From assembly GCA_028277795.1 (NCBI GenBank), contig JANQFP010000239.1, forward strand, positions 1 through 38,671: a stretch of DNA of 38,671 nucleotides, in the 5' to 3' direction. The notes under the pieces were generated by a model. That model worked only from the letters and a program-made list of their open reading frames with translations, ran no database searches and was not told the DNA's origin. The stretch is from Rhodospirillales bacterium. Its GTDB lineage: Bacteria > Pseudomonadota > Alphaproteobacteria > Rhodospirillales > JANQFP01. Shown piece after piece: positions 3,138 through 14,948 of the stretch; the first letter of the stretch is position 1; each line of letters opens with the position of its first letter. Position numbers and translations under genes: made by a program.

Positions 3138-3186
3138 GGTGGTGGAGCCGAGGGGAATCGAACCCCTGACCTCTACAATGCCATTG
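3138..3186. repeat. attL: 49-bp copy of the tRNA-Ala 3' part
   Basis: This 49-bp sequence is identical to 14897-14945. It corresponds to tRNA-Ala from position 30 (anticodon arm) to the CCA end plus 2 nt. Only the tRNA 3' part is present here, so this is the element-distal attachment site. Identity stops abruptly after CCATTG on the element side (accgag here, tagcgc at the right end). Confidence 0.93.
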
Positions 3187-3269
3187 ACCGAGGAAATTAA
3201 CAATAACAACAACTTAACCCTGCAAGACACCGCAAACGAGCGCACCGAATAACAAGGGGATAGCAGGCG

Positions 3270-3488
3270 GTGCGTGCGAGTTGCGTGCGAGCCGGATGGT
3301 CCCGCGGCAGCGCGTGCCAGGCTGGCGGTGACGCCCAGGCGATACCCGACGAATTGCGCGACCTAGCGAACGCCGTTCGCCGCATCGGCAACGGCTATCG
3401 CGATGATCCTGAGGCGATCGCGATCGCCAAGGACACGATTTCGCACCGGCTGCGAACGCTCGCCCGCCGTTTGGAGCGTGCCGCGTGA
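3270..3488 (+). CDS. Small island protein before rep, unknown function
   Basis: This short frame encodes up to 72 residues ending IAKDTISHRLRTLARRLERAA. The C-terminal two thirds (from AIPDELRDLANAVRRI) are predicted helical and basic, the style of small phage replication or regulatory proteins, but I cannot assign a family. Its stop codon overlaps the GTG start of the replication gene (GTGA at 3485-3488), which supports a real, translationally coupled gene. The start is uncertain: the GTG at 3270 lies inside direct repeats and no good ribosome site precedes it, so the true protein may be shorter. Confidence 0.5.
   Translation: MRASCVRAGWSRGSACQAGGDAQAIPDELRDLANAVRRIGNGYRDDPEAIAIAKDTISHRLRTLARRLERAA
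3271..3291. repeat. Two 10-bp direct repeats near attL
   Basis: TGCGTGCGAG occurs at 3271-3280 and again at 3282-3291, one helical turn apart, about 85 bp inside the left attachment site. Such paired repeats suit integrase or excisionase arm-type sites or a regulator site; this is inference from position. Confidence 0.35.
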
Positions 3489-5029
3489 GCGTCGTCGCCA
3501 TGCCATCGCCCGCCTTCCGCACGCCGCCCGCCAACGTGGAAGCCGAGAAAGCGCTACTCGGCGCCATCTTCACTGATAACCGGGCCTTCGAGCGGGTTTC
3601 GGAGTTCCTGCGGCCCGAGCACTTCGCGGTGCCCCACCACGGGCGAGTCTTCGGCGAGATAGCAACGCTGATCTCCGAAGGAAGGCCGGTCACGCCGGTG
3701 ACACTGGCCCGCCTGTTTGAGACCGACGGGAGCCTCCAAGATGTCGGCGGCACCGCTTACCTGGCTGAGCTTGCCGGTTCTGCCGTCACGATCATCAACG
3801 CCGGTGAATATGGGCGTCTGATCTATGAGACCGCCGTCCGTCGCGAACTGATTGCCGCCGTCGAGGAGATCGCCGATCGCGCCTATGACGGGCGGACGGA
3901 CGAACCTGTCGGCACCGTGGTGGCCGACGCCCATCGGTGGATTGCGGACCTCTGTGCGCGAACGGACGCGCGGTCGCTGGTGGCCGACCTCATCGACCCG
4001 TGCGCTCTTGACGGTCAGCCGGTTCCCGAGCGGCGATGGCTGGTTCCGGATTGGCTGCCCTGGGGTCACGTCACGGCTCTGTACGGGGACGGTGGCACCG
4101 GCAAGAGCCTGTTGGCGCAGACACTGATGACGGCGGCGGCCACGGGTCGGCCCTGGCTCGGGCTGCCCGTTGAACCGGTGCGGTGCCTGGGGCTGTTCTG
4201 TGAGGACCCTCCCGACGAACTGTGGCGGCGCCAGGACGCCATCAACAACCAGCTGGGTGTCTCGTTCGCGGACCTGGCATCGGTGCGCTGGTTCGCGCGA
4301 GTCGGACACGACAACGCCCTCATGACGTTCGATCCGCGCGGCGCGCCGGTCTTGACGCCTTTGTTCTTCGAAGTGGCGGCGCTGGCCAAGAAGGACGGCG
4401 CCGAGCTGGTCGTCGTCGATACGGCGGCCGACACCTTCGGCGGCAACGAGAACATCCGCGCACAGGTGCATCGGTACGTTGCCGGCGCGCTCGGGCGCTT
4501 GGCGCGAGAAATCAACGGGACCGTGTTGCTTTGCGCCCACCCGTCTCGCGCGGGCCTGAGCACCGGTGAAGGCGACGGCGGCAATACCGCCTGGTCGAAC
4601 ACAGTGCGCTCGCGGCTGTACCTTGAACGCGACGGCGAAGACGAAGGGCGCCGCACGCTTTCTCGGCGCAAGGCGAACTATGCGGCACGTGGCGATGTGC
4701 TCACCCTGCGCTGGCACGACGGCGCGTTCGTCGTCGAACAGGCGCCCACCGGCGTCTTCGGCTCGATAGACCGCCAGGCAGCCGAGACCGCCTTCCTCGA
4801 TTGCCTTGATGCCACGACGGCGCAAGGGCGCGACGTCAGCGATGCCCGCAACTCGCCTCGGTACGCGCCCAAGGTATTCGAGGCAATGACGCAAGCGCGC
4901 GGATACCGGACTCGCGATCTAACAAAGGCCATGGAACGGCTTTTCGCCGCCGGCCGCATCCGCGTCGGCGAGGTCGGCAAGTATGCCAATCGCGGGTCTC
5001 GACGGGGCATCGTGAGGGCCGATCCGTGA
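3485..5029 (+). CDS. Island replication protein: DnaB-N plus RepA-like ATPase
   Basis: The protein has 514 residues. Residues about 15-120 resemble the N-terminal domain of DnaB-type helicases (VEAEKALLGAIF, then FLRPEHF and HGRVFGEI). From about 170 a RecA-like RepA/AAA_25 ATPase follows, with Walker A GDGGTGKS at 201-208 and a Walker B-like VVVDTAAD at about 309-316. The C-terminal 60 residues look like a winged-helix module (AMTQARGYRTRDLTKAMERLFAAGRI). No primase motif is seen. The likely role is to open or unwind the island's own origin during induced replication. The GTG start overlaps the previous stop by 4 bp. Immediately downstream are repeated GCACAAAG motifs, the expected position for a cognate origin. 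Confidence 0.85.
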   Translation: MSVVAMPSPAFRTPPANVEAEKALLGAIFTDNRAFERVSEFLRPEHFAVPHHGRVFGEIATLISEGRPVTPVTLARLFETDGSLQDVGGTAYLAELAGSAVTIINAGEYGRLIYETAVRRELIAAVEEIADRAYDGRTDEPVGTVVADAHRWIADLCARTDARSLVADLIDPCALDGQPVPERRWLVPDWLPWGHVTALYGDGGTGKSLLAQTLMTAAATGRPWLGLPVEPVRCLGLFCEDPPDELWRRQDAINNQLGVSFADLASVRWFARVGHDNALMTFDPRGAPVLTPLFFEVAALAKKDGAELVVVDTAADTFGGNENIRAQVHRYVAGALGRLAREINGTVLLCAHPSRAGLSTGEGDGGNTAWSNTVRSRLYLERDGEDEGRRTLSRRKANYAARGDVLTLRWHDGAFVVEQAPTGVFGSIDRQAAETAFLDCLDATTAQGRDVSDARNSPRYAPKVFEAMTQARGYRTRDLTKAMERLFAAGRIRVGEVGKYANRGSRRGIVRADP

Positions 5030-13451: not shown

Positions 13452-13458
13452 GGCCGCG

Positions 13459-13818
13459 ATGACCGTTCACGACTGCACCGTATCCCGGCTCCCGAAGCTG
13501 CTGTCCGAGCGTGAGGCGGCGGAGTATCTGCGGGCGTCCGTGGGGACGGTGCAGCGTGAACGCCGGCGGGGCCGGCTCGGATACACCCAAATCGGCGCCC
13601 GCATCTTCTACACCGAGGAACAGCTGGTCGCGTACATCGACCGGCGGAGCATCCAACCATGTCAAGAAAACGGAACGACCGACCGGGGCAAATCGGCGAG
13701 TACTGGCTGTCACGACGGCCAAACAGCCCCATGTGGTGCCGGACCTGGTTCGACAACGCCACTCGACAGACAGCTCGTGCATCGCTCGGCACAGAAGATT
13801 TTGAGCAAGCGAAGCTAG
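13459..13818 (+). CDS. AlpA/excisionase-like HTH protein
   Basis: The N-terminal 60 residues form a MerR-type HTH_17 domain (LLSEREAAEYLRASVGTVQRERRRGRLGYTQIGARIFYTEEQLVAYI), as found in AlpA activators of satellites and in excisionases. The C-terminal half (after about residue 67) is low-complexity and is read from the same DNA as the start of the integrase in another frame (160-bp overlap), so only the N-terminal domain may be under selection for this gene. In phage-inducible islands of Gram-negative bacteria an AlpA-like gene next to int switches on the island; here it could do that or direct excision. Confidence 0.8.
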   Translation: MTVHDCTVSRLPKLLSEREAAEYLRASVGTVQRERRRGRLGYTQIGARIFYTEEQLVAYIDRRSIQPCQENGTTDRGKSASTGCHDGQTAPCGAGPGSTTPLDRQLVHRSAQKILSKRS

Positions 13819-14948
13819 CCCTCGCCGCCTGGGTGCTGGCACATGGTCCGATGGCGGAACAGCGGCCGGATGACGTGCCCCTGGAGACGTGCCTGGTCCG
13901 CTACTATGAGCACCAGGCCAAGCAGCTGCGCAGCGCCGACCAGGCCCGCCACGGCCTGAGGAAATGGTGCGTATTCTTCGCCGGCGCGCTGGTTTCGGAA
14001 GTGACGCCGGAACGTCAAAGGGAGTTCGTCGCGTCGTTGCGCGCGCAGGGTCTGTCGGACGGCTATATCCGGCGCATCCTGGCCAACGGGCAGGCGGCGC
14101 TCAATCGCGCCCACCGCGAAGGCGAGATCCGCACCGTTCCGAAGATCCTCCTCTCGCTCGCGCAAGAGGCGGATCCGCGCGAGCGCGTCGCCAGCATCGA
14201 GGAAATGGCTCGGCTGTGGAACGCCGCCGACCTCGCGCACCAGCGGCTCTACCTGTTGCTGGCGATCGGCACCCTGGCCCGCCCGGAGGCGATCTTGCAG
14301 CTGACGACGTTCCAGGTCGATTGCGACAACCGCCTCATCCGGCTCAACCCGCCCGGCCGCCGGCAGACCAAGAAGCGCCGGCCGACGGTGCCGATGTGCG
14401 ACACGCTGCTACCCTACCTTCGCGCCATCCCGCCCGGCCCAGTGGTGCAGTGGCAGGGCAAGAGGCTCGGGAGCATCCGCACGGCCTTCAAGCGGATAAA
14501 GGCACGAGCCCGCCTCGACCTTCGCCGGCAGCGGGCGATGGAGGTTCGGGCGCTGCGGGATATGGACGATCGCAAGGCCGCCTGGTCGGCGATCGGGGAG
14601 GCCCGCGCGGCGGGCGACGCCTTGATGGAAATCTCGCCGTACACGATCCGTCACACGATGGCGACCGAGCTTCGCCGGCGCGGCGTGCCCGTGTGGGAAG
14701 TAGCCGGCTTCCTCGGTCACACCAGCGGCTACAAGACGACCGAGCGTTACGCAAAGTTTGGCCCGGACCACCTGGCGGGGGCCGTCCGGGCCATCGATGA
14801 CTACTTCACAGACCTGAGCGCGACATCCGCGAGCCTCGCCTCTGGTCCCGACAAGGCCAACGTGCGTTTGAGCTGCGTGTTAGCAGGTCCTCGAAAGGTG
14901 GTGGAGCCGAGGGGAATCGAACCCCTGACCTCTACAATGCCATTGTAG
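13659..14948 (+). CDS. int: Tyrosine recombinase/integrase
   Basis: The 429-residue integrase has an N-terminal arm-binding region (about 1-60), a core-binding SAM-like domain (about 70-165) and a catalytic domain. Catalytic residues visible are R208 in TLARPE, R331 in PYTIRHTMA (the usual box II histidine, three residues earlier, is tyrosine here), H354 in LGHTS and nucleophile Y364 in TERYAKF. The last residues (VVEPRGIEPLTSTMPL) are encoded by the antisense of tRNA-Ala inside attR, so excision would change the C-terminus. It is transcribed towards the attachment site. The start at 13659 follows GGCGGAG and lies 160 bp inside the preceding gene. Confidence 0.94.
   Translation: MSRKRNDRPGQIGEYWLSRRPNSPMWCRTWFDNATRQTARASLGTEDFEQAKLALAAWVLAHGPMAEQRPDDVPLETCLVRYYEHQAKQLRSADQARHGLRKWCVFFAGALVSEVTPERQREFVASLRAQGLSDGYIRRILANGQAALNRAHREGEIRTVPKILLSLAQEADPRERVASIEEMARLWNAADLAHQRLYLLLAIGTLARPEAILQLTTFQVDCDNRLIRLNPPGRRQTKKRRPTVPMCDTLLPYLRAIPPGPVVQWQGKRLGSIRTAFKRIKARARLDLRRQRAMEVRALRDMDDRKAAWSAIGEARAAGDALMEISPYTIRHTMATELRRRGVPVWEVAGFLGHTSGYKTTERYAKFGPDHLAGAVRAIDDYFTDLSATSASLASGPDKANVRLSCVLAGPRKVVEPRGIEPLTSTMPL
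14897..14945. repeat. attR: 49-bp repeat within tRNA-Ala
   Basis: This is identical to 3138-3186. It begins 2 nt beyond the CCA end and ends at tRNA position 30, so the strand-exchange region probably lies in the anticodon stem or loop, as is common for tyrosine integrases. The complete tRNA is preserved at this end. Confidence 0.93.

Follow-up and report, generated by a model that had tools for sequence, protein, structure and literature searches.

Gene content of the island

In the 38,671-nt stretch of DNA analysed here (contig JANQFP010000239.1 of a Rhodospirillales bacterium, assembly GCA_028277795.1; hereafter the window), a candidate capsid-forming phage satellite occupies positions 3138-14945, as an island of 11.8 kb flanked by identical 49-bp direct repeats. 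Genes were called with our own script, and families were assigned by Pfam and PHROG scans; all genes lie on the plus strand unless noted. The left repeat (attL) is located at 3138-3186 and the right one (attR) at 14897-14945, the latter forming the 3' end of an intact tRNA-Ala(GGC) gene, the integration site (14899-14974, minus strand; ARAGORN, Rfam). The tyrosine integrase gene (13659-14948; Phage_integrase, 1e-13) has its 3' end within this tRNA gene. The island also encodes an AlpA/excisionase-like helix-turn-helix (HTH) protein (13459-13818; HTH_17, 2e-10; PHROG 66, 1e-8) and orf165 (12954-13451), an open reading frame with no family match. The island L113, located at a tRNA-Gly gene, has an integrase sharing 41% over 422 aa with that of the window, and its AlpA-like counterpart shares 42%.

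The head and packaging genes comprise the terminase small subunit (TerS, 5328-5846; PHROG 57, 5e-15), the GpA-type terminase large subunit (TerL, 5821-7710; Pfam GpA ATPase, 2.4e-101, and nuclease, 1e-95), a portal of the lambda family (8904-10325; Phage_portal_2, 8.8e-110), a fusion of head protease and major capsid protein (10318-12156; phrog_4523, 1.4e-170; Phage_capsid_4, 9e-41) which has full-length relatives, a gpW-like head-tail adaptor (12160-12372; PHROG 2545 Ad1, 4e-16, and alignment) and a head cement or decoration protein (DUF2190, 12375-12710; Phage_cement_2, 8e-28). A preliminary description, made from the letters of the window, had called this a complete lambda-type head set. 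Each of the listed genes is present, but the lambda type does not extend throughout. The capsid is not of the lambda gpE type: it matches PF25209 (Phage_capsid_4), is Mu gpT-like and fused to the protease, with no match to PF05065. The decoration protein belongs to Phage_cement_2 instead of gpD, and the gpW gene lies downstream of the capsid gene, whereas in lambda it precedes the portal.

The 55 tail-protein queries taken from tailed relatives did not reveal any tail gene in the island or in the rest of the window; in control prophages the same queries gave 2-7 matches, and in one 5.2-kb control fragment none. Lysis families were likewise absent from the Pfam and PHROG scans of the island proteins, and no tape measure was found in the 11.8 kb. 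The claimed lack of tail and lysis genes is in agreement with these results. The claimed lack of a phage repressor is unproven, because the cargo gene m2, described below, may encode an HTH regulator.

TerL and the portal are separated by a slot of 1.2 kb (7741-8911, about 54-60% GC) with two genes, m1 (7741-8034, minus strand), which matches no family above threshold, and m2 (8156-8911, likely start at 8258), which overlaps the start of the portal gene and whose homolog occupies this slot in a Pararhodospirillum island (L028/L201). No database family was found for m2, and its AlphaFold model was poor (pLDDT 45) and uninformative on the fold. Judging by the sequence pattern, m2 is possibly a MerR/AlpA-like HTH regulator, and a regulatory role is a guess.

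The replication module consists of orf72 (3270-3488), a small protein with no Pfam or PHROG match whose frame overlaps the start of Rep, and of Rep itself (3485-5029), in which a DnaB N-terminal domain (Pfam DnaB, 3e-28) is fused to a RepA-like helicase ATPase (AAA_25, 4e-33). The C-terminal part matches RSF1010 RepA (1g8y), and the N-terminus (3485-3985) is 58% identical to the replicative helicase DnaB of the host (G000:C245:12270-12728). By sequence, Rep is a DnaB-RepA chimera, and the fusion suggests recruitment of host replication proteins. The match on the host contig was considered as a second island and rejected, as it represents the host dnaB gene, which the N-terminal domain of Rep resembles. 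A recent capture of this domain from the island's own host is unsupported, with 58% identity to host DnaB compared with 57-58% for several relatives. Between Rep and TerS, at 5032-5141, four copies of the iteron GCACAAAG form a putative replication origin, and none of 2000 dinucleotide shuffles reached four copies. The iterons are adjoined by a conserved block preceding TerS, a putative cos (packaging) site at about 5219-5292, which contains GGGTCCTTCC at 5227. The motif GG[GT]TCCT[TC]C lies within this longer block and was found upstream of TerS in 52/79 satellite loci, compared with 1.1 expected from mononucleotide shuffling; it is also present in some tailed phages with a GpA terminase. Position and conservation point to a cos function of the block. 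The attachment repeats, integrase, AlpA-like gene, Rep and iterons of the preliminary description, together with the rest of its gene inventory, were all recovered as repeats, open frames and family matches; the two cargo genes and the cos-like block had been overlooked.

Relatives of the island

In 317 genomes from the order and 385 from the class, the capsid profile detected many full-length relatives, and a portal profile applied to genome and viral contigs extended the set to 125 fused-capsid loci, 73 of them drawn from IMG/VR viral contigs. Single-protein capsid scans of genome and viral contigs had given no matches; the profile searches succeeded. The neighbourhoods split into two groups. 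Tailed prophages show the order TerS-TerL-gpW-portal-capsid-cement-tail, and satellite-like islands the order TerS-TerL-cargo-portal-capsid-gpW-cement, after which the cluster ends. In the fused-capsid loci, gpW was detected downstream of the capsid in 100/125 and upstream of the portal in 0/125, the rest being mostly truncated near the portal; conversely, the fused capsid of this type occurred in 0/33 loci having gpW upstream. Where at least 8 kb of downstream sequence was available, 20/23 fused-capsid loci gave no tail match, although the sensitivity of the tail queries was moderate (14/20 tailed-type loci were positive with the same queries). The spacing between TerL and the portal was at least 1 kb in 87/90 measurable fused-capsid loci. 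Relatives carry as cargo, among other genes, a type IIG restriction enzyme, DNA methyltransferases accompanied by an HNH protein, and a secretion protein of the ShlB type; where the heads of islands are nearly identical, their cargo is non-homologous, with the exception of one pair in which the cargo is common to both. The window island has the gpW gene downstream of a fused capsid, the cargo between TerL and the portal, and a portal of the satellite clade described below.

Seven further islands end in direct repeats at tRNA genes. Repeats of 46-49 bp bound islands at tRNA-Met (G169, 18.3 kb), tRNA-Gly (L113, 11.8 kb), tRNA-Lys (L029, 13.9 kb), tRNA-Thr (L028, 11.5 kb) and again tRNA-Met (L139, 15.2 kb), and repeats of 17 bp bound those at tRNA-Phe (L112, 12.5 kb) and tRNA-Glu (L138, 10.6 kb). 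None of them gave a tail match except L139, with two minor tail-like matches. The frequent ending of contigs just past the cement gene had raised suspicion, which was set aside: where checked, the islands lie at tRNA-Met beside 5S/23S rRNA genes, which are frequent assembly breakpoints. L100, L179 and L139 have this position, which may account for many of these contig ends. No terminal repeats were found on the viral contigs.

Several other observations were made among the relatives. In L161 (9979-16047, NZ_QOKW01000021.1), a head cluster in the satellite-type order precedes gpZ-like, tube and tape-measure genes; no tail-tip gene was seen in the locus, which is a possible intermediate. L104 (3144-5180) and L109 (9086-12243) are head islands with a tape-measure-like protein (TMP_3, 1e-48 in L104). 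Satellites encode a small related protein of about 75 aa close to their right end, and tailed prophages have similar ones close to their packaging genes (L097, 16392-16607; L108, 15461-15727; L099, 1417-1644). A small Synechococcus elongatus plasmid (NZ_CP006473.1, 7842 bp; L140) carries a capsid-protease relative (25.7% over 88% of the query) adjoining a plasmid replication gene, and a fused capsid gene is present on the Rhodovastum plasmid RHOAph (NZ_OW485609.1, 10690 bp; L136), where neither portal nor terminase is annotated.

Phylogeny and selection

The island portals form one strongly supported clade, outside which the tailed phages fall, including WO and AcaML1. The tree of major capsid proteins contains two supported satellite clades rather than one, and its deep nodes are weak. 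The head genes are under purifying selection, with ratios of nonsynonymous to synonymous substitution (dN/dS) of 0.05-0.26 in close pairs of relatives. The preliminary description had proposed an alphaproteobacterial branch with a GpA terminase and a fused protease-capsid, and the head order shared by different families and orders, along with the single portal clade, bears this out at the genomic level. The comparison of proteins and synteny that it advised likewise revealed a satellite-like group separate from the tailed prophages.

Interpretation and alternative explanations

The presented results make it very probable that the island is a capsid-forming phage satellite, integrated and potentially mobile, and a member of a widespread family that has a common layout. 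With its more than 100 relatives, it seems to represent a phage satellite family of alphaproteobacteria that is large and apparently undescribed; no description of this group was found among open-access papers, subscription papers lying outside the search. Judged from gene content, the island would depend on a helper, package its DNA and be mobile. Upon infection by a tailed helper, or its induction, the island would excise by means of the integrase with AlpA, and Rep would replicate it from the iteron origin, possibly with its DnaB-like N-terminus serving to load host replication factors. TerS and TerL would then cut the island's own cos DNA and package it into its own small heads, which gpW would close and to which helper tails would attach, while the helper would also provide lysis. 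The variable genes between TerL and the portal would represent cargo, which in relatives includes restriction-modification and other genes.

Several observations weigh against this interpretation. TerL is mosaic, and that of the window is weakly placed, grouping with L028 near tailed prophages; therefore, modules have been exchanged. L104, L109 (identical with L158) and L161 carry a tape measure or partial tail, with L232 as one weak case, so there is no absolute boundary between satellite and phage, and tail loss may be graded among the relatives. A head-tail joining protein resembling gpFII was not recognised in the window. The 125 loci were gathered with profiles built from satellites, which makes the sampling biased. 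Moreover, the search for a tailed helper prophage in the same strain, which the preliminary description had recommended, found none in the draft genome, with no second lambda-type portal, HK97 portal, DUF2460 or tape measure. The only phage-like trace that this search met was a 7.5-kb contig with a podovirus-like terminase. None of the prophages in its own strain mobilised the satellite EcCIEDL933 (PMC11389934), and the missing helper is therefore not evidence against a satellite. The 7.5-kb host contig (L041, G000:C2, 7513 bp) also encodes a primase-like protein and a probable DNA polymerase, and is possibly a phage fragment or an incomplete phage. In Paracoccus DSM 17099, a tailless island of pBEN (L138) has been recorded together with the active siphovirus Pben1 (L145), of the same capsid type (PMC6536676).

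That the island is a deletion derivative or decaying prophage, which has recently lost its tail and lysis genes, is highly unlikely. Tailed phages, RcDormio and LPPA33 among them, have head genes homologous to those of the island, which would fit such an origin, and the partial tails of L161 and L109 indicate that this head lineage can join tail genes. However, the tailless layout recurs at tRNA-Ala, Gly, Lys, Thr, Met, Phe and Glu in different families, the group is set apart from tailed phages by gpW position and portal phylogeny, the frames are intact, and dN/dS in relatives is well below 1. Neither disrupted genes nor a full-tailed relative at the same locus, the marks of a defective prophage, were observed. 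The argument against simple prophage decay, previously drawn from the intact overlapping frames, is thereby strengthened by the selection data, the portal clade, the gpW position and the tRNA-bounded tailless relatives. At this locus, no relative was found in which these head genes run on into tail and lysis genes, an arrangement that would have spoken for decay; a weaker form of it occurs elsewhere, in L104, L109, L161 and L232.

A domesticated head module, which interferes with invading phages by a decoy capsid or connector and does not serve its own transfer, is just as unlikely. Restriction-modification genes in the cargo of relatives are compatible with such a function, and disruption of helper head assembly has been proposed for a satellite plasmid of Vibrio that carries capsid E genes (PMC13230959). 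Interference, however, would not need the integrase, AlpA, Rep, iterons, cos-like site and both terminase subunits that are kept here. It is highly improbable that the island is a virus in need of no helper, either autonomous and tailless or equipped with a non-canonical tail that escaped recognition: orf165, m1 and m2 lack an assigned function and many loci occur in viral contig collections, but gpW and the lambda-type portal imply a tail interface, and the 11.8 kb contain neither a lysis gene nor a tape measure. A gene transfer agent, being a head and tail cluster without integrase or att sites, does not agree with the integrase and att sites of the island or with its lack of a recognised tail gene.

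Comparison with known systems

The capsid-forming satellites known so far are mainly those of Gammaproteobacteria and Firmicutes, which have a single capsid type. If the satellite interpretation is true, a second head lineage, of lambda/Mu type, is common in Rhodobacterales and Rhodospirillales, which would mean independent head capture by satellites. Many such sequences in viral collections could be mistaken for incomplete phages, which affects counts of viral diversity. The slot between TerL and the portal would be a new place to seek defence genes, and strain DSM 17099 makes the question of helper tails directly testable.

Among tailed phages, the Rhodobacter phage RcDormio group, Pseudomonas LPPA33 and Paracoccus Pben1 share with the island a homologous fused protease-capsid, GpA TerL, lambda portal, gpW and cement protein, but they have gpW between TerL and the portal and tail genes after the cement gene, and lysis genes are annotated in RcDormio. 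Wolbachia phage WO and AcaML1 have the closest portals among sequenced phages (46-48%), and WO also the closest TerL (56-57%); in these phages, however, protease and capsid are separate, gpW precedes the portal, and baseplate and tail genes are present. The MulchRoom and MiniFlayer satellites of Streptomyces phages, compared by description only, also have their own head and packaging genes, but possess no obvious replicase and reportedly show no significant homology to known satellites. The cf-PISP/PISP satellite plasmids of Vibrio are likewise tailless and bear head genes, with capsid E, protease, TerS and a MerR-like regulator in PISP (PMC13230959), but they are episomal, lack an integrase and use other capsid families.

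The likeness drawn in the preliminary description was that to capsid-forming phage-inducible chromosomal islands (cf-PICIs) such as EcCIEDL933, which combine integrase, AlpA and Rep with their own terminase, portal, protease, capsid and connector and have no tail. The island shares this head and packaging set, the integration and replication genes with att sites, and the lack of tail and lysis genes, and its size is similar to the cf-PICI average of 14 kb (PMC10803314). The likeness does not extend to the capsid and HNH gene. The capsids of published cf-PICIs have been analysed under PF05065 (HK97-type), their protease being separate (PMC13230959), the cf-PICI packaging module contains an HNH gene (PMC10690885), and the listed hosts are mainly Enterobacteriaceae and Firmicutes (PMC10803314). 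In contrast, the island has a GpA terminase, a lambda portal and a fused Phage_capsid_4 protein, no HNH family was found in the Pfam and PHROG scans of its proteins, and its host belongs to Alphaproteobacteria. The island would function in the manner of a cf-PICI, but because its capsid family, the HNH gene not found and its host class set it apart from cf-PICIs as published, it was not assigned to them. It is moderately probable that these islands represent an ancient radiation, spread through Alphaproteobacteria, of capsid-forming satellites that evolved independently, separate from the PF05065 cf-PICIs and graded in dependence on helper tails, most being head-only and a few, with their own tape measure or tail tube, needing only the remaining tail.

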